Source: Acidobacteriota bacterium (lineage in GTDB: Bacteria > Acidobacteriota > Polarisedimenticolia > SMYD01). Taken from it: DNA of 51,728 nucleotides. Of this stretch, positions 3,502 to 13,385 are shown in pieces; position 1 is the stretch's first letter, and the number at the start of each line of letters is the position of its first letter. The stretch covers positions 1 through 51,728 of the forward strand of contig SMYD01000008.1 of NCBI GenBank assembly GCA_004356015.1. Direction: 5' to 3'. The notes under the pieces are model-generated. The model was not told the DNA's origin and did not search any database. It worked only from the letters and a program-made list of their open reading frames with translations. The translations under genes were made by a program, and so were the position numbers.

Positions 3502-3644
3502 TCTAGCCCGGTGTGCGGGGTCTGTCCAAGAGCGGGGCCGGGGACAGGCCGGGGTCTATACTGTCCTGGCCGGGAGTGCCCATGGGCCAATGGGCCCCGC
3601 TGCTGGCCCCGGCCTCTGATTTGCATTACGTTCATTTGACTGCC

Positions 3645-6600
3645 ATGCGTCTCCCTGCCAGGTTCCTGCTGCTGGCCCTGCTTCCCATGGGGCCGGCCAT
3701 CTTCGCTGCGGCTCCTGCGGGGCCGCCGGTGAACGGCATGGGAGTTGTCCTTCCTGCCGACTGGCTGACCACCCCGCTGCAGGCGGACGAAGTGCCGCCC
3801 CTGCCCTGGTCCGGCCGCCCGGCCGGCGTGCCTCTTTACGTCCGTGTGACCATCACCAGCGCGGCTCTGGATCAGCCGGACGTCAGTGCCCGTCGGCTGG
3901 GGACTCTCCGGGATCAGGATCTGGTACCGGTGCTGCTGCTGGACTCACCCGGCGCCGGCCGGCCCATGAGCACAGCCCTGGGCTTTGATCTCGACGGGTG
4001 GTTGACCCGGGTGGATCGCCTCCTCCAGGTCATGGACCATGAACCGGTCCTGGTGCAGGTCATGGAGCGTCCCCTGCAGCACATGACGGCACCCCTCTAT
4101 GCCTTTGTGCTGAAGCGCATGGCGGTGATGGTGCGCGCCGTGGCCCCTGGCTCACACATTGCCAGCGGCACTCTTGCGGATGTCAGCGAGGCGCGGGAAC
4201 TGGCCGTGTGGGGGGTGGAACCGTACCTGGATGCTGTGGTCATGGACAGGGCGGCTGCAGGTGCCATGGATCTGGCAGGGGTTCGCATGGCCCTGCCGGC
4301 GACGGAGATATGGCTGTCCGGTGCCGGTGCCGGCGGAGGCTCCTATCTGCGGGAGGCGGGCCTGGCGTTCAGCCGCGCGGTTTCCCTGGTCTTTGCCGCG
4401 CCTGACAGCGGACTGTCACCGGAGATGCTGGCTGCCTGGCAGCGGTTGCTGGGGCCGGAAACCATCGTGGTCCCGCCGGCATTCCGTCGGGTGGAGGTTC
4501 GTGCCGGGGAGCAGGTCCTGCCGCCTGAAGATTTTCTCGAACTGGAAGAGCCCGATGGCAGGCGCTATCTGGTGGCTTTCGCGGCCCCCGCCGGCCTGCC
4601 TCTGGAGATGACCATCCATGGACCACGGGTCAGCGTGGCGTGGATTCTGGATCCCGTCACCGGTACGGAAACCATGGGCGCCGCCGCCGACTGGCTCGTG
4701 GCCGGCGGTGACCCGAGCAGCCACGCGGTGAGCCAGGTGACCCTCCATGTGCCGGGGTTGCCTTTGGTCGTGCGCCTGGGGCGGGTGGGTGGTGCGGCGC
4801 CGCGGCTGGCCGAGTTGGAGAAAGTCGTGGCGGGCCGGAGCCTGACGGTGGAGGAGATCCTGGCTCGCCACCGGGAGGTCCAGGCAGGCCAGGATCGGCG
4901 CCTGCATACCACTGAAGCCGACGTGCGTATCGATTTCCATTTCAGTGTCGCCAATCTCAGCCAGAGGTTCGATGTCGCCACTCTCAACCGCTATTTCCAT
5001 GACAGCACCCGCACGGTGTACGAGGAGCGCGCCCTCTATCTCAACGGCGCCCTGTGGCGCGGCAAGCGCCCTCCGGACCTGCCGTTTGTCCTTCCCGAGC
5101 GTGTGACCGAGGTGCCACTGGACCTGAATCTCGACCTCCGTTACGTCTACGAGCTGGAGAAGACCGCAGATCTGGACGGCCGGCAGGTCTACGTGGTCTC
5201 CTTCGCCCCGGTAGAAGGCAGTGAGGCCCCCTATCGCGGGCGCGTCTGGATCGACACCCAATCGTTTGTCAAGCGCCGTCAGGAGGTGGTGGAACTGCAC
5301 CCCAAGCTCCCGGTCATCAGCAATCGCCTCCTGCAGGAGTTCACGCCGGTGACCCAGGGCGGGCGAACCTGGTGGCTGGTGACGCGCCTGACCGGGCAGA
5401 TGATCTTCACGGCTCTCGGGCGCAACGTGGTCCTGGAACGAGAGCTGATCTACAGCGACTACCAGATCAACCTGCCTGCCTTCGAGGATCGCCTGGATGA
5501 GTCGTACGCCTCCGACCGGCCCCTGTTGGAAGAAACGGAGGACGGATTCCAGCGCCTGGGGGTGGTCGCCGATGGCCGGGGCGGTTTCACGCGGCAGGTC
5601 TCGGATCAGGGTCGCACCGGTGTCAGTCGCCTCGTGGTGGGGGTCTGGTCCATCGGGGACGATCTCGGCCTGAAGGTGCCGTTTGCGGGTGTGAACTATT
5701 TCAACTTCGACTGGCGGGGAACGGGCAACCAGGTGGATGTGATCTGGGCCGGCCCTTTTCTCAATGTGTTCTGGTCGGATCCCAGCTTTGGCGGGGGCAA
5801 GGCCATCCTGGCACTGCAAGGGCGCATCAACCCGCTTTATTCAGGCAACGAGCGGCTGGATGCAGGCGATGACATCGACGGCGAGATCAAGGCGGAGCGC
5901 CTCGAAGAGAGTTCCCAGCGCTTCCAGATCATTCTGGGCCGTCCGCTGGGCGTCCATCACAAGTTCGAGTTTCAGCTGGATCTGGATCACCTCCGCTTCC
6001 GCAGCGAGGATGAGACGGCGGCGGACTTCGTCGTGCCCTCGGACACCTGGCAGGAACTCCTCACCGGGCGCTGGATCTATGCCCGTGCCGGCTGGCGGCT
6101 GGAGGGCTCGCTCCAGGGCGGTTCCCGCAACGACTGGACCTTCTGGGGCGACCCCGACGGGTCGGATTTCAGTGATGGCGATGAGCAGTTCGCGCGCTCG
6201 GCGATGGAATTCAGCAAGGCGTTCTATTCCGCCGGCCGCAACAAGTTCGGCTTCGGCCTGGCCATGTATCACGGCAACGGTCTGGACCGGTTCTCCAAGT
6301 TCGAACTGGGGCGCTCCGGTGTGGCGCGTGTGCCGGGTTACAGCCGCGACGGCATCCGTTTCCGCACCGGCGGAGTGCTGGGACTCAGCGGGGCTTTCGC
6401 CCTGGGCAGCAAGGCTCGGATGGACCTGAGCCTCACCCACGCCCGTTTCCGCGATGAGGAGGACCTGGGCCCCCATGTGGAGCATGCCACCGGGGCTAGC
6501 GTGGCACTCAACTTCTCCGGGCCGTTCAACGCGTTCATGCGGGCGCGCGTGGGCTTCGCCCTGAGCAGTTCCGTCGACGATGCCGACGGCGGCGGCTCGC

Positions 6601-6686
6601 TGCGGGTGACCTACTTCCGCACCTTCCGGCGCTGGTTCTGGCAACGCGCCTCTGAGAAGAAACACAAAAACGGCCCCGGGTCCTGA
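3645..6686 (+). CDS. Large secreted/outer-membrane protein: N-terminal sugar-hydrolase-like region, central LolA-like region, C-terminal beta-rich region
   Basis: ORF 3513-6686; likely start ATG 3645 (MRLPARFLLLALLPMGPAIFAAAP signal peptide). The C-terminal third has alternating beta-strand patterns suggesting a barrel. Confidence 0.6.
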   Translation: MRLPARFLLLALLPMGPAIFAAAPAGPPVNGMGVVLPADWLTTPLQADEVPPLPWSGRPAGVPLYVRVTITSAALDQPDVSARRLGTLRDQDLVPVLLLDSPGAGRPMSTALGFDLDGWLTRVDRLLQVMDHEPVLVQVMERPLQHMTAPLYAFVLKRMAVMVRAVAPGSHIASGTLADVSEARELAVWGVEPYLDAVVMDRAAAGAMDLAGVRMALPATEIWLSGAGAGGGSYLREAGLAFSRAVSLVFAAPDSGLSPEMLAAWQRLLGPETIVVPPAFRRVEVRAGEQVLPPEDFLELEEPDGRRYLVAFAAPAGLPLEMTIHGPRVSVAWILDPVTGTETMGAAADWLVAGGDPSSHAVSQVTLHVPGLPLVVRLGRVGGAAPRLAELEKVVAGRSLTVEEILARHREVQAGQDRRLHTTEADVRIDFHFSVANLSQRFDVATLNRYFHDSTRTVYEERALYLNGALWRGKRPPDLPFVLPERVTEVPLDLNLDLRYVYELEKTADLDGRQVYVVSFAPVEGSEAPYRGRVWIDTQSFVKRRQEVVELHPKLPVISNRLLQEFTPVTQGGRTWWLVTRLTGQMIFTALGRNVVLERELIYSDYQINLPAFEDRLDESYASDRPLLEETEDGFQRLGVVADGRGGFTRQVSDQGRTGVSRLVVGVWSIGDDLGLKVPFAGVNYFNFDWRGTGNQVDVIWAGPFLNVFWSDPSFGGGKAILALQGRINPLYSGNERLDAGDDIDGEIKAERLEESSQRFQIILGRPLGVHHKFEFQLDLDHLRFRSEDETAADFVVPSDTWQELLTGRWIYARAGWRLEGSLQGGSRNDWTFWGDPDGSDFSDGDEQFARSAMEFSKAFYSAGRNKFGFGLAMYHGNGLDRFSKFELGRSGVARVPGYSRDGIRFRTGGVLGLSGAFALGSKARMDLSLTHARFRDEEDLGPHVEHATGASVALNFSGPFNAFMRARVGFALSSSVDDADGGGSLRVTYFRTFRRWFWQRASEKKHKNGPGS

Positions 6687-6729: not shown

Positions 6730-8720
<1,991 letters not shown>

Positions 8721-8773: not shown

Positions 8774-8800
8774 TTAGCACTCACCTTTAACGAGTGCTAG
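8774..8800 (-). promoter_or_regulatory. CIRCE operator (HrcA-binding inverted repeat) upstream of groESL
   Basis: TTAGCACTC-N9-GAGTGCTAG; matches consensus TTAGCACTC-N9-GAGTGCTAA except the last base. Confidence 0.95.
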
Positions 8801-8940: not shown

Positions 8941-8968
8941 TTGTCGCCGCCGGCGCGAGACGTATATT
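8941..8968 (+). promoter_or_regulatory. Candidate promoter for the AAA+ ATPase/partner unit
   Basis: TTGTCG-N16-TATATT, 21 bp upstream of the probable TTG start at 8990. Confidence 0.45.
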
Positions 8969-8989: not shown

Positions 8990-10891
8990 TTGGCCGAGAA
9001 TGAAGTCAGCCGAGTCGAGTCGGTTTCACGGGAGGATCTGGAATCCCGGCTGCGGGAGATTGCCCGGCGCCATCATCCCGAGGAGATCCTGGATCGCCTG
9101 GAACTGACCCACCTGGTGCAGGTTCTGACCAATGATGCTCTCCTGGTGGGTGACCTCTACACCCGCACCGCTCTGGGGCAGATCCTGGATCGGGAGCTTC
9201 CATCGCTGCCGGTGGCGTTGCGTGCCCTGGCCCAACGGGCCGATCGCAAGGGTCCGGAGGACACCAGCCTCCTGATGGAAGTTCGCCGTCTGCCCGAAGA
9301 CCTCAAGGCCGTGGGCGATAAATGCCTGCTGGACGTGGGACTGGTCGGCCAGCGCGAGTTTCGGGGCATTTCCCTCATCGACCTTGGACGGCGCTCCTAC
9401 GAAGTCGCTTCCCGCATCATGGAACGCCTGGCCGCCGACCCCACCCTCAGCCGGTTCTTCAAGGAAAACCAGCTTGCGGCGCTGCCCATCGAGGAGGAAG
9501 TCCTGTTCCTGCAGCAGTGTTCGCGGCGTTTTGCCCTTTATGCCGATCTTCTCCACTGGCTGCGTGCCGATAACCCGGAAAGCCGTGAGGAGAGGGCTCT
9601 GGCTGGAACTCAGCCGGCGACGCTCTCGCCCGGTCCCGGGGCGGGGGCCATTGCGGCCATCACCGCTGTCCCCATGATCGAAGAAGCCGTGGTCGAGGGG
9701 GAGGATGGCAGTCCTGATCCCTCTCCTTCCGCGAGGCCCCAGCCGGCCGGTGATCGGGTGCAGCTTCCCCGGGAGGAATTGCTGGCGGCCTACGAGCGCA
9801 TCCTGCTCTTCTCGGCCCTGGATATACCGGCCCTGGGTGAGCGGCTGGGCGAGACCGTGGTGGGCCAGAGCGGTGCCATCCAGGCGCTCTGCGATGAGTT
9901 CACCCTCTATGCCACCGGGACCCACAACTTGAACAGGCCCCCGTCCTATCTCTTCGTGGGGCCCACCGGGGTGGGCAAGAACTACCTGGTGGAGACGCTC
10001 CTGGAAATCCTGGAGCAGGGCTGGGGCCTGGAGATTCCCCTGCTCATCCTGGAGGGACCCAATTACACCTACCCGGCAGACATCAACGAGTTGCGCGGGG
10101 CCACCCGGGGTTTCATCCGCAGCGACGAGGACGGGGTGCTGACCGAGTTCCACAAGAAGTCTGCGACCTCGCCCCTGTCCGTCATCCTCATCGACGAGGT
10201 GGAGAAAGCCCACCCTCAGCTCAGGCGCTTCTTCCTCTCCATCATGGATCGAGGCACAGTGACCGATAACCGGGGCAAGGTGCTCAGCTTTGCCAATTCC
10301 ATGCTGGTGTTCACCTCCAATATCGGTTATTCGGATCTGAGGCGTCAGGCAGCACCCATCGGCTATGGAGATCAGGCATCCAAGGACCGACGGGACGCCC
10401 AGGACGTGCGCCGGTCCCTGCGCCGTGCCCTGTCCCCTGAGTTCATCAACCGGTTGCGCCCCATCCATTTCGATCACCTGGGGCCTGAATCTCTCGAACG
10501 GATATTCGACCTCGAACTGGAACGGATTGCCCGCCGCTTCCGGGATATCCACGACCTGGAGGTCGAGGTGACTCCTGCGGCGCGGACCGAACTCCTGCGC
10601 CGGGGCACCAGCCATGACCATGGCGCCAGGCATCTGCGGGCGCGGATGGAAACGCTCATCAACGTGGAGATCAGCCGCCGGATCAAATCCGATGAGCGGC
10701 GCCGGGGCTCTGGGCATAATCGCACCCTGAAGTACCTGCGCGCGCTGAAGACAGGGGAGCGGCCGTTTGATCTGGATGAAGTCCGCGCCCGGGTCATGAA
10801 GGTCGCGCGGGCACGGGTCTCGTACCATCGCTTCCGGGTGGACCTGAAGGACGACAACTTCGTGTACGAGGGCGTCAAGGAGCCGTCGTGA
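8990..10891 (+). CDS. Single-module Clp/HSP100-type AAA+ ATPase with an unusual N-terminal domain
   Basis: ORF opens at GTG 8972; TTG 8990 follows an AGAGGAG-like RBS. Walker A GPTGVGKN, Walker B VILIDEVEKAH, sensor FTSNIG, SPEFINRL arginine-finger region, ClpB-D2-like C-domain. Confidence 0.85.
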   Translation: MAENEVSRVESVSREDLESRLREIARRHHPEEILDRLELTHLVQVLTNDALLVGDLYTRTALGQILDRELPSLPVALRALAQRADRKGPEDTSLLMEVRRLPEDLKAVGDKCLLDVGLVGQREFRGISLIDLGRRSYEVASRIMERLAADPTLSRFFKENQLAALPIEEEVLFLQQCSRRFALYADLLHWLRADNPESREERALAGTQPATLSPGPGAGAIAAITAVPMIEEAVVEGEDGSPDPSPSARPQPAGDRVQLPREELLAAYERILLFSALDIPALGERLGETVVGQSGAIQALCDEFTLYATGTHNLNRPPSYLFVGPTGVGKNYLVETLLEILEQGWGLEIPLLILEGPNYTYPADINELRGATRGFIRSDEDGVLTEFHKKSATSPLSVILIDEVEKAHPQLRRFFLSIMDRGTVTDNRGKVLSFANSMLVFTSNIGYSDLRRQAAPIGYGDQASKDRRDAQDVRRSLRRALSPEFINRLRPIHFDHLGPESLERIFDLELERIARRFRDIHDLEVEVTPAARTELLRRGTSHDHGARHLRARMETLINVEISRRIKSDERRRGSGHNRTLKYLRALKTGERPFDLDEVRARVMKVARARVSYHRFRVDLKDDNFVYEGVKEPS

Positions 10892-11586
10892 GCCTGCTTG
10901 CCACGACCCAGGGTCTGCTTGAACGAACCTACGCCACTGTGTCGGGAGTAGGTGACCTGGGGCGGTTTGTCATCGGGGATATGGGTTATCGCCGTCTCCT
11001 GCGCGACCACGATCCCATCCAGGTGGTGAATACCGGCGTCCAGGCGCATGTCTCCCATGCCGGCACGGGCGACACTCCACGTGTCCTGGTCCGGCAGTGG
11101 CACCAGGGCGCGGCCCTGTCCATTTATTTCCCCGATGCCCTCATTGCCCGCCTCGAATCACGTCCGCCCACGGCCGTTCTTGATGATGGCAACGTGGACG
11201 ACTTCGCCGATTTCGTGGAGGAGATTGACCACTTCCTGGTGCTCTACGACGGCATCTGCCGGGGTCGTGAAATGCACCTGCTGGCCCTGGAAACCCGTGC
11301 CAACATCAGCAAGGCCCTGGTGGTCTCCCATTTCCTGGGGAGGTTGTCCGGGCGCCGCCGGCTGGGTCCCGATCAGCGTCAGTGGGTGCGCTACCACCTC
11401 TTCAGCAAGAAGCGGTTCAACGACCCCGACCCCGTGGTGCGTCGCCGCTACAGAGATGCCCGGCGCTTCGCCCTGCGCCTTCTGGAGCGTCTGGAGGGGC
11501 TGTCCGCACGCCAGCGCATCCGGGAGTTGCGGCGCTGGAACAGTCTGCCCGCGCAGGAAAAGATGCGGGAACTGGCCGCGAACTGA
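10888..11586 (+). CDS. Uncharacterised protein translationally coupled to the AAA+ ATPase
   Basis: 232 aa; GTG start overlaps the upstream stop (GTGA). No family recognised. Confidence 0.7.
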   Translation: MSLLATTQGLLERTYATVSGVGDLGRFVIGDMGYRRLLRDHDPIQVVNTGVQAHVSHAGTGDTPRVLVRQWHQGAALSIYFPDALIARLESRPPTAVLDDGNVDDFADFVEEIDHFLVLYDGICRGREMHLLALETRANISKALVVSHFLGRLSGRRRLGPDQRQWVRYHLFSKKRFNDPDPVVRRRYRDARRFALRLLERLEGLSARQRIRELRRWNSLPAQEKMRELAAN

Positions 11587-11616: not shown

Positions 11617-13206
11617 TCAGCGGGGGAGAGCTGCAGCGGCGCCACCGGCCGGGTGATCCGCCAGCATGGCCAGCTCGCGAGCCTGGGGAAACAGGGTCAG
11701 GGCTTTTTGCACCTGGGCGTCATACTCGTTGCGGACGCGGTTGCTCCAGACCAGCCCGTAACGGGCCGAGAGGACTTCCGAGCGCACGAACATACTGATG
11801 TTGCGCCGGTCCACCTGAAGCTCCGACTCCTCGAAGGGAATCTCTTCATCCAGGAGGAGCTGGCGGAATTCCTCGAGCACCTGGTCGGTCATCTGGAAAT
11901 CTTCGGGGACCTCGGGGTGTCGTGAAAGGTAGGCCACCGCGAAGCGGAAGAAGGCCGAGGTACGGTACATGCGGGTGATGAAGGTGGACGGCTCCTCCAG
12001 CTTGACTTCGGTATCCGGGGCGATACCCCCACCGCCATAGACGGTGCGGCCACCATCCGTGAAGCGGCGTGTGCTCTGGTCGAATGAAGGTTCGTAATTC
12101 TCGTCGGTCCGGTAGGCGACGTAATCTTCCAGGTCGTCATAATCGCGCTGGATCAGACGCCCTGAAGGGGTGTAGTACTTGGCCGTGGTGAGGGCCAGGG
12201 CGTTGCTGTGGGAGAGGGGGTACACGGATTGGACCAGTCCCTTGCCCCAGGTGGTCTCACCGACGATGAGGCCCCTGTCGTGATCCTGGATGGCGCCGGC
12301 GACGATCTCGGAGGCAGAGGCCGAACCGCGGTTCACCAGCACCACCAAGGGCAGGTCCGGGTAGGAGGCATCTTCGTTGGCGTAATAGTCCTTGTTGGAC
12401 CCCTTGATGCGTCCCCTTGTATAGACCAGTTTCTTGCCACGCTCCAGGAAGGTGCCCGAGACGCTCACGGCCTGATCCAGAAGGCCGCCGGGATTGCCTC
12501 GCAGATCCAGGATCAGCCGCTTCATTCCCTGGCGATCCAGTTTTTCCAGAGCGGCGTGCAGTTCCTTGCTGGTGGTCTGGGTGAAGTTGCGAATCTTGAT
12601 ATAGCCGGTATCCGGTTCAATCATGTAAGGACTGACCACACTGTCGGTGGGGATGGTGTCCCGGGTCACCTCGAACTCGAGTTGCTCTGTAAAACCGGGC
12701 CGGGTCACGGTGATATTGACCGAGGTGCCCTTGGGGCCACGCAGGAGATCGACGGCTTCCGATGAAGTCATGCCATCGGTCGTGGTGCCGTTGATGCGTG
12801 CGATGATGTCGCCGGCGCGAATGCCCAGCCGCGCGGCCGGAGTCCCGTCGATGGGACTGATCACGGTCAGAGGCCGGTCACGCCCCAGTTTTTGAATGAC
12901 GATTCCGAGACCGGTGAATGAGCCGCGCTGTTCTTCCCGCATGGAGCGGAACGCCTTGAGGTTGAGATAATGGGAGTGGGGGTCAAGGGTGCGCAGCATG
13001 CCGTTGATAGCCCCCTCCACCAGTTGATCCGGTTTGGTCTCTTCATAGTAATTGTCCTGGACCACCTGCAGGATGGTGGCGAATGAGCGGACAAACGTCT
13101 CATTTTCCCATGTATCGGCTTGAACCCGGCTGGACAGAGCCACACCGGCCAGCGAGCCGGCAACCAGAAGAACGGCTGCCACGGAAGGAAGAGATTTGAG
13201 CCGCAT
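11617..13206 (-). CDS. S41-family carboxy-terminal processing protease (CtpA-like) with PDZ domain
   Basis: Signal MRLKSLPSVAAVLLVAGSLAG; PDZ SFTGLGIVIQK...ISPIDGTPAARLGIRAGDIIARING; catalytic-region motifs RGNPGGLLDQAV, VNRGSASASEIVAGAIQDHDRG, GETTWGKGLVQSV. Confidence 0.95.
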   Translation of the reverse strand: MRLKSLPSVAAVLLVAGSLAGVALSSRVQADTWENETFVRSFATILQVVQDNYYEETKPDQLVEGAINGMLRTLDPHSHYLNLKAFRSMREEQRGSFTGLGIVIQKLGRDRPLTVISPIDGTPAARLGIRAGDIIARINGTTTDGMTSSEAVDLLRGPKGTSVNITVTRPGFTEQLEFEVTRDTIPTDSVVSPYMIEPDTGYIKIRNFTQTTSKELHAALEKLDRQGMKRLILDLRGNPGGLLDQAVSVSGTFLERGKKLVYTRGRIKGSNKDYYANEDASYPDLPLVVLVNRGSASASEIVAGAIQDHDRGLIVGETTWGKGLVQSVYPLSHSNALALTTAKYYTPSGRLIQRDYDDLEDYVAYRTDENYEPSFDQSTRRFTDGGRTVYGGGGIAPDTEVKLEEPSTFITRMYRTSAFFRFAVAYLSRHPEVPEDFQMTDQVLEEFRQLLLDEEIPFEESELQVDRRNISMFVRSEVLSARYGLVWSNRVRNEYDAQVQKALTLFPQARELAMLADHPAGGAAAALPR

Positions 13207-13255
13207 GCACCCTCCATACCGATGGACAAGAGATGAAACAATCGATTTCGTCTCA

Positions 13256-13284
13256 AATATACCGTGGGTCCTCACGCGAGTAAA
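13256..13284 (-). promoter_or_regulatory. Candidate promoter for the S41 protease gene
   Basis: Minus strand TTTACT-N17-TATATT, about 50 bp upstream of the start at 13206. Confidence 0.5.
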
Positions 13285-13385
13285 GGTCGAATCCTCTACC
13301 ATTACAGTAATTTACATGGGCAGGGCGTTCCTTGACCTCGCTGCCGGGGCTGGCCTACCCTAACCTCAGGGTTCTCGGCATCCCC

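Follow-up and report, generated by a model that had tools for sequence, protein, structure and literature searches.

A candidate Clp-like unfoldase with a near-constant gene partner beside groESL in an Acidobacteriota class

To our knowledge, the Clp unfoldases of bacteria are few and well catalogued. The window analysed here, a stretch of 51,728 nucleotides from the 2.7-Mb draft genome of an Acidobacteriota bacterium, raises the question of what kind of machine is encoded by two overlapping genes, one for an HSP100-type AAA+ protein with a single module and the other for a smaller partner protein, which an earlier note made from the letters had put forward as a candidate unfoldase system. Both open reading frames start and stop where that note had placed them and are coupled by the GTGA overlap that it described (Table 1), and the charged partner peptide that it quoted is letter-exact in the translation. 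An ATGA or GTGA overlap joins the two genes in 13 of the 19 relatives checked, and the gaps in the remaining six are of 31 nt or less. Long open frames running across the partner gene (up to 1110 aa) were considered as possible fusions of the two proteins but arose from chance overlap, and wherever the pair occurs it consists of two genes.

Table 1. Position of the gene pair, its motifs and its conserved neighbours in the window
Feature	Coordinates	Strand	Details
groEL	6730..8382	-	conserved neighbour
groES	8433..8720	-	conserved neighbour
CIRCE-type operator	8774..8800		HrcA site, 1 mismatch; groES/AAA+ divergent intergenic region
Weak sigma-70-like promoter	8941..8968	+	21 nt before the AAA+ start; consensus match only
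AAA+ protein, single-module HSP100-type	8990..10891	+	633 aa; TTG start at 8990, stop at 10891
N-domain of AAA+ protein (all-helical)	8990..9574	+	aa 1-195 (helical ~14-195); AF2 helices; no Pfam match
Linker, poorly conserved, predicted disordered	9581..9757	+	aa 198-256; pLDDT <50; alignment
AAA+ module with D2-small lid	9770..10705	+	aa 261-572
Walker A GPTGVGKN	9959..9982	+	aa 324-331; Asn331 invariant 23/23
Pore-loop-1 region ...RGFIRSDE	10097..10129	+	aa 370-380; aligned with ClpA/ClpB GYVG; aa 373-380 invariant
Walker B hhhhDE	10181..10198	+	aa 398-403; DE invariant
Sensor 1 TSN	10313..10321	+	aa 442-444; invariant
P-I-G-Y loop	10355..10366	+	aa 456-459; family P-[IV]-G-[FY]
Arginine finger R488 in PEFxxR	10451..10453	+	invariant
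Sensor 2 GAR	10622..10630	+	aa 545-547; invariant
GTGA stop/start overlap	10888..10891	+	4 nt; couples AAA+ and partner genes
Partner protein	10888..11586	+	232 aa; GTG start at 10888, stop at 11586
Partner motif EExxH	11218..11232	+	aa 111-115; E111, E112, H115 invariant in 25 aligned, distant included
Partner E135...K142	11290..11313	+	both invariant
ctpA-type S41 peptidase	11617..13302	-	conserved convergent neighbour

The AAA+ protein has the architecture that had been proposed for it, with one ClpB-D2-like module in which Walker A, Walker B, the sensors and the arginine finger are all present, and with neither the double modules of ClpA/B/C nor the zinc domain of ClpX. The Pfam scan returned AAA-type domains and ClpB_D2-small only (AAA_2, E=4e-32, 112 bits against a cut-off of 27; ClpB_D2-small, E=8e-12, 45.4 bits against 21.9), with no match to Clp_N or to a zinc domain. 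The scores against NCBIfam lie far under every Clp equivalog cut-off (ClpA, 158 bits, cut-off 993; ClpB, 151 bits, cut-off 1232; ClpX, 26 bits, cut-off 359). Among the matches listed, the nearest solved structures to the module are ClpC, ClpB and Hsp104. A maximum-likelihood tree of D2 modules gathers the family in a single clade (100/100 support; stem length, 3.1 changes per site) that lies inside no named Clp group (ClpA/B/C). With these scores and a clade of its own the protein falls in no annotated Clp subfamily, one of the two points on which the earlier note had staked its proposal. Its orthologues align over the full length at 42-89% identity (22 aligned relatives), the closest named one being from Acidobacteria MAG L034 (89% over aa 1-631), and a scan for close relatives that was not confined to the phylum found two full-length proteins, both from Acidobacteria. 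A PADLOC match to the candidate defence ATPase PDC-M37B was limited to the AAA+ core (aa 271-455) and was not full-length, and membership of a defence system was rejected.

Conservation of the motifs was scored over 23 relatives, and the aromatic residue of the pore loop, F375, is invariant in all of them, as are those marked in Table 1. The Asn noticed at the end of Walker A occupies the Mg-binding place of the Thr or Ser of GxxGxGK[T/S] in 23/23 sequences, and because of this invariance it is a fixed trait of the family and not a defect of one copy. In torsins the equivalent Asn (GXXXXGKN) is thought to lower ATPase activity (PMC7175109); by analogy, the residue probably slows or gates ATP turnover in this family and does not imply inactivity.

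The N-terminal region of about 280 aa, earlier called unfamiliar, has indeed no Pfam match, and its description could be refined into a helical N-domain followed by a disordered linker. The partner likewise matches no family, as had been claimed, with nothing convincing in Pfam or NCBIfam. Its AF2 model is confident (pLDDT 89), and Foldseek found no significant match for it among PDB or viral folds. The partner orthologues are 36-85% identical across the relatives aligned, and R187 and Y188 are invariant in addition to the residues of Table 1, including in relatives at 20-29% identity. No copy was found on plasmids (searched with a distant relative as query) or in viral contigs.

The distribution of both genes was followed in 41 genomes of the window's Acidobacteriota class, mostly drafts or MAGs, in the less complete of which absences are soft. 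The AAA+ gene is present in 27 of them (24 with matches that are complete or nearly so, the one in G025 extending to aa 557 of 633, and three, G002, G008 and G039, with the gene interrupted by a contig end) and the partner in 30, while nine genomes have neither. Both occur in 25 genomes and are adjacent in 25/25 (Fisher p=0.0002, shared ancestry ignored), which bears out the expectation that the two genes travel together. No intact AAA+ gene without partner was seen among the 41 genomes; in G025 and G039, the two with AAA+ gene and no partner, the former runs off the contig end. Both proteins are real conserved families in this class. Five genomes, all of family f7 (G007, G015, G024, G036 and G040), have the partner without the AAA+ gene, at the same slot between groEL and ctpA where this is assembled, and the AAA+ gene has apparently been cleanly lost there with the partner retained; the partner therefore has a function of its own or serves a different client. 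At five such f7 loci (L105, L108, L110, L111 and L113) the lone partner stands beside groESL with its conserved residues kept. The partner gene looks split in two further genomes (G027 and G035; loci L116 and L115), apparently by N runs in the assembly and not by a frameshift. The partnership that gene coupling had suggested therefore stands as regards constant adjacency where both genes occur, but not as regards exclusiveness, since the partner is alone in these five genomes and accompanies a stand-alone N-domain-like protein in a distant branch.

This distant branch sheds light on the N-domain. In four genomes of other Acidobacteriota (G343, G101, G238 and G044) a protein of about 200 aa resembling the N-domain directly precedes a relative of the partner (E 1e-20 to 1e-27, 20-29% identity), and these loci are without this AAA+ motor. 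A search of 149 genomes from a second Acidobacteriota class found further N-domain-like proteins of about 200 aa in 43; in one branch the gene is followed by a relative of the partner, and in the others none was detected. No Pfam family was found for the stand-alone relatives scanned. Their surroundings vary: the partnerless form is typically followed by a dksA-type gene and lon, with relA/spoT near (loci L192-L203, e.g. L194:5672-6262), and at five other loci (L149, L150, L151, L204 and L205) the N-domain-like protein, mostly with a partner relative, adjoins a gene that by sequence likeness resembles a CoA-binding protein, a pilB/gspE-like ATPase being near in some. The pattern GD.aLf..G...lG..aY...rF..yadlL is common to the N-domain and the stand-alone protein. 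Their profiles align over about 70 columns, a likeness that is weak when taken alone (hhalign P=0.002, probability 14%), with a score of 27.9, against a best of 27.2 in 950 column shuffles (0/950 as good), and the two likely share ancestry. Because of this likeness and of the shared partner, N-domain and partner are probably the older module, which the motor would have joined later by fusion in the window's lineage.

The opposite end of the putative machine was approached through an alignment in which the AAA+ family was set beside ClpA and ClpB of E. coli and the host genome's two other HSP100 proteins. The P-[IV]-G-[FY] loop aligns onto IGL, with which E. coli ClpA docks on ClpP, and onto the MGF of the resident ClpC-like protein, while the GFIR of the pore loop falls on GYVG; no such motif is seen at that position in E. 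coli ClpB or the resident ClpB. Compared with the [LIVM]-G-[FL] type, the family has [IV]-G-[FY] at the ClpA IGL position in 23/23 sequences, with G458 throughout and with Tyr as third loop residue in 10, a position held by Phe in ClpX and by Leu in ClpA. Loops of this kind bind hydrophobic pockets on ClpP (PMC9035409), and the presence or absence of LGF served to predict ClpP assembly in the account of ClpI in PMC10149685. ClpP itself is present in 37/41 class genomes, that of the window included (G000:C18, E=2.7e-84); no consistent extra paralogue dedicated to the AAA+ protein was found in the 41. Judged by its loop, the AAA+ protein probably docks on the resident housekeeping ClpP.

These features are best read as an undescribed Acidobacteriota unfoldase system that docks on ClpP and whose partner acts through the N-domain, a reading to which we give a probability of roughly 0.55. 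The protein would probably be a new Clp-like unfoldase serving the housekeeping ClpP, a further Clp machine in addition to the genome's own proteins of ClpB and ClpC type. Its D2-type module is expected to assemble as a single-ring HSP100 hexamer, in which the GFIR pore loops would grip the substrate and pull it through the pore by ATP hydrolysis, at a pace that the Walker A Asn may slow or gate as proposed for torsins; this threading, like the putative unfoldase activity itself, is read from the conserved motifs. The I/V-G-F/Y loop points to the next step, the threaded substrate being presumably degraded by the docked ClpP. For the recognition of substrates the genomic linkage suggests the partner, which together with the helical N-domain might act as an adaptor or regulator that recognises, brings or licenses them. 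The partner is proposed to act through the N-domain because stand-alone N-domain-like protein and partner relative co-locate at motor-free loci, and it is placed there, and not in the ring, because both are read as an old unit; its binding to the N-domain, like the hexamer, the ATPase and the docking, is a prediction. A more elaborate version, quite unlikely to our mind, would make the pair a new kind of regulated AAA+ protease: the older two-protein module would have been captured by fusion to the motor, which would dock on ClpP and be kept slow by the Walker A Asn until a metal-binding or pseudo-peptidase-like partner, with its invariant EExxH...E...K residues, signals through the N-domain.

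The main rival, possible though unlikely, is a remodeller or disaggregase independent of ClpP, like ClpB or mitochondrial Skd3, which would thread its substrates and release them for refolding, the loop being conserved for other reasons. A single D2-type module is also what Skd3 has (CLPB homologue chains are among the structure matches), and the neighbourhood fits a chaperone: the pair lies in a conserved slot between groES-groEL and the convergent ctpA, with a CIRCE-like site upstream of it in most loci, in the intergenic region shared with groES. This site, however, overlaps the groES promoter (TTGACA-17-TATGCT, minus strand) and not the weak promoter of the AAA+ gene, and control of the latter by HrcA is conjectural. 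The loop, with its glycine in 23/23 sequences between I/V and F/Y at the ClpA position, also speaks against a disaggregase, given that the ClpB proteins of E. coli and of this genome are without it. The window further holds tatA and tatC beyond the ctpA-type gene and, at 3513-6686, an open reading frame of 1057 aa for which Pfam gives no match at E 1e-5. That the AAA+ protein and the partner are functionally unrelated and merely share the slot by groESL is decidedly improbable; the lone partners of the five f7 genomes, in the same slot, would agree with it, but the AAA+ gene is never intact without the partner, the two apparent cases being cut by contig ends, and at unrelated loci elsewhere relatives of the partner come after an N-domain-like protein.

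Two other readings concern the nature of the partner and of the Walker A. The partner might be a degenerate zincin-type peptidase, with EExxH...E for HExxH...E, forming an AAA+ and metallopeptidase-like machine as active or pseudo-enzyme. The invariance of E111, E112, H115, E135, K142 and R187 down to 20% identity would suit such a site, an alignment to the M78 profile puts EExxH on HExxH, and weak Foldseek matches to SprT-like, IrrE-like and oligoendopeptidase F structures recur. None of these fold matches is significant (best E 0.2-0.4), 10/300 column shuffles score as well against M78, and the first of the metal-binding His residues is always missing (EExxH in 25/25), so that an assignment to M78/IrrE or SprT is suggestive only and the reading as a whole improbable. 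Hardly credible is a bacterial counterpart of torsins, a crippled AAA+ active only in a mixed ring where the partner supplies an arginine like LAP1/LULL1. The GKN of Walker A in 23/23 sequences is that of torsins (PMC7175109), and the gene partner looks obligate. Torsins, however, are without arginine finger and aromatic pore loops (PMC7175109), whereas this protein has its own invariant arginine finger (R488), sensor 2 and aromatic pore loop (F375); the partner need not supply an arginine finger because the motor keeps its own. LAP1, the torsin activator, is AAA+-like (PMC4358337), whereas the partner model has no AAA+ fold among the Foldseek matches listed. No torsin family appeared in the Pfam scan and none among the best 60 of 73 PDB matches. 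The likeness to torsins is limited to Walker A, and homology beyond it was rejected.

Returning to the preferred reading of a ClpP-docking unfoldase, the family can be set against the known ones. With the D2 of ClpA and ClpC it shares the AAA_2 and D2-small fold, Walker B, sensors, arginine finger, in-register pore loop and a loop of the ClpP-docking type, and it differs from them in having one AAA+ module, no Clp_N, GKN for GKT, GFIR for GYVG in the pore loop and its own clade. Like ClpX it has an N-domain, a single-ring type of AAA+ and an IGF-type loop, but it has no zinc-binding type of N-domain and the module is of D2/ClpB type. Skd3 (mitochondrial CLPB), too, has a single HSP100 module of D2 type preceded by an N-terminal domain that is not of Clp type; in the present family, by contrast, the N-domain is not ankyrin, an I-G-F/Y loop is present and the gene lies in a bacterial operon with a partner. 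The torsins with LAP1/LULL1 are likewise HSP100-related and have a partner protein besides the GKN ending. As described in PMC10149685, ClpI of Actinomycetota is a comparable lineage-restricted Clp unfoldase family recognised from sequence and with ClpP-loop evidence; it is double-ringed and ClpC-like, unlike the present family, and the portions of that paper on which this comparison draws report no dedicated partner.

If this reading is true, the proteostasis network of a phylum that is large and has been little studied would gain a class, an HSP100 family of single-ring type that combines an N-domain of its own with a Walker A like that of torsins and with a dedicated, uncharacterised partner, and this family would let the effect of GKN, a point that torsins leave open, be tested on an otherwise complete HSP100 motor. 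The conserved AAA+ signature and the near-constant partner beside groEL suggest a new protein quality-control machine, which may feed ClpP.
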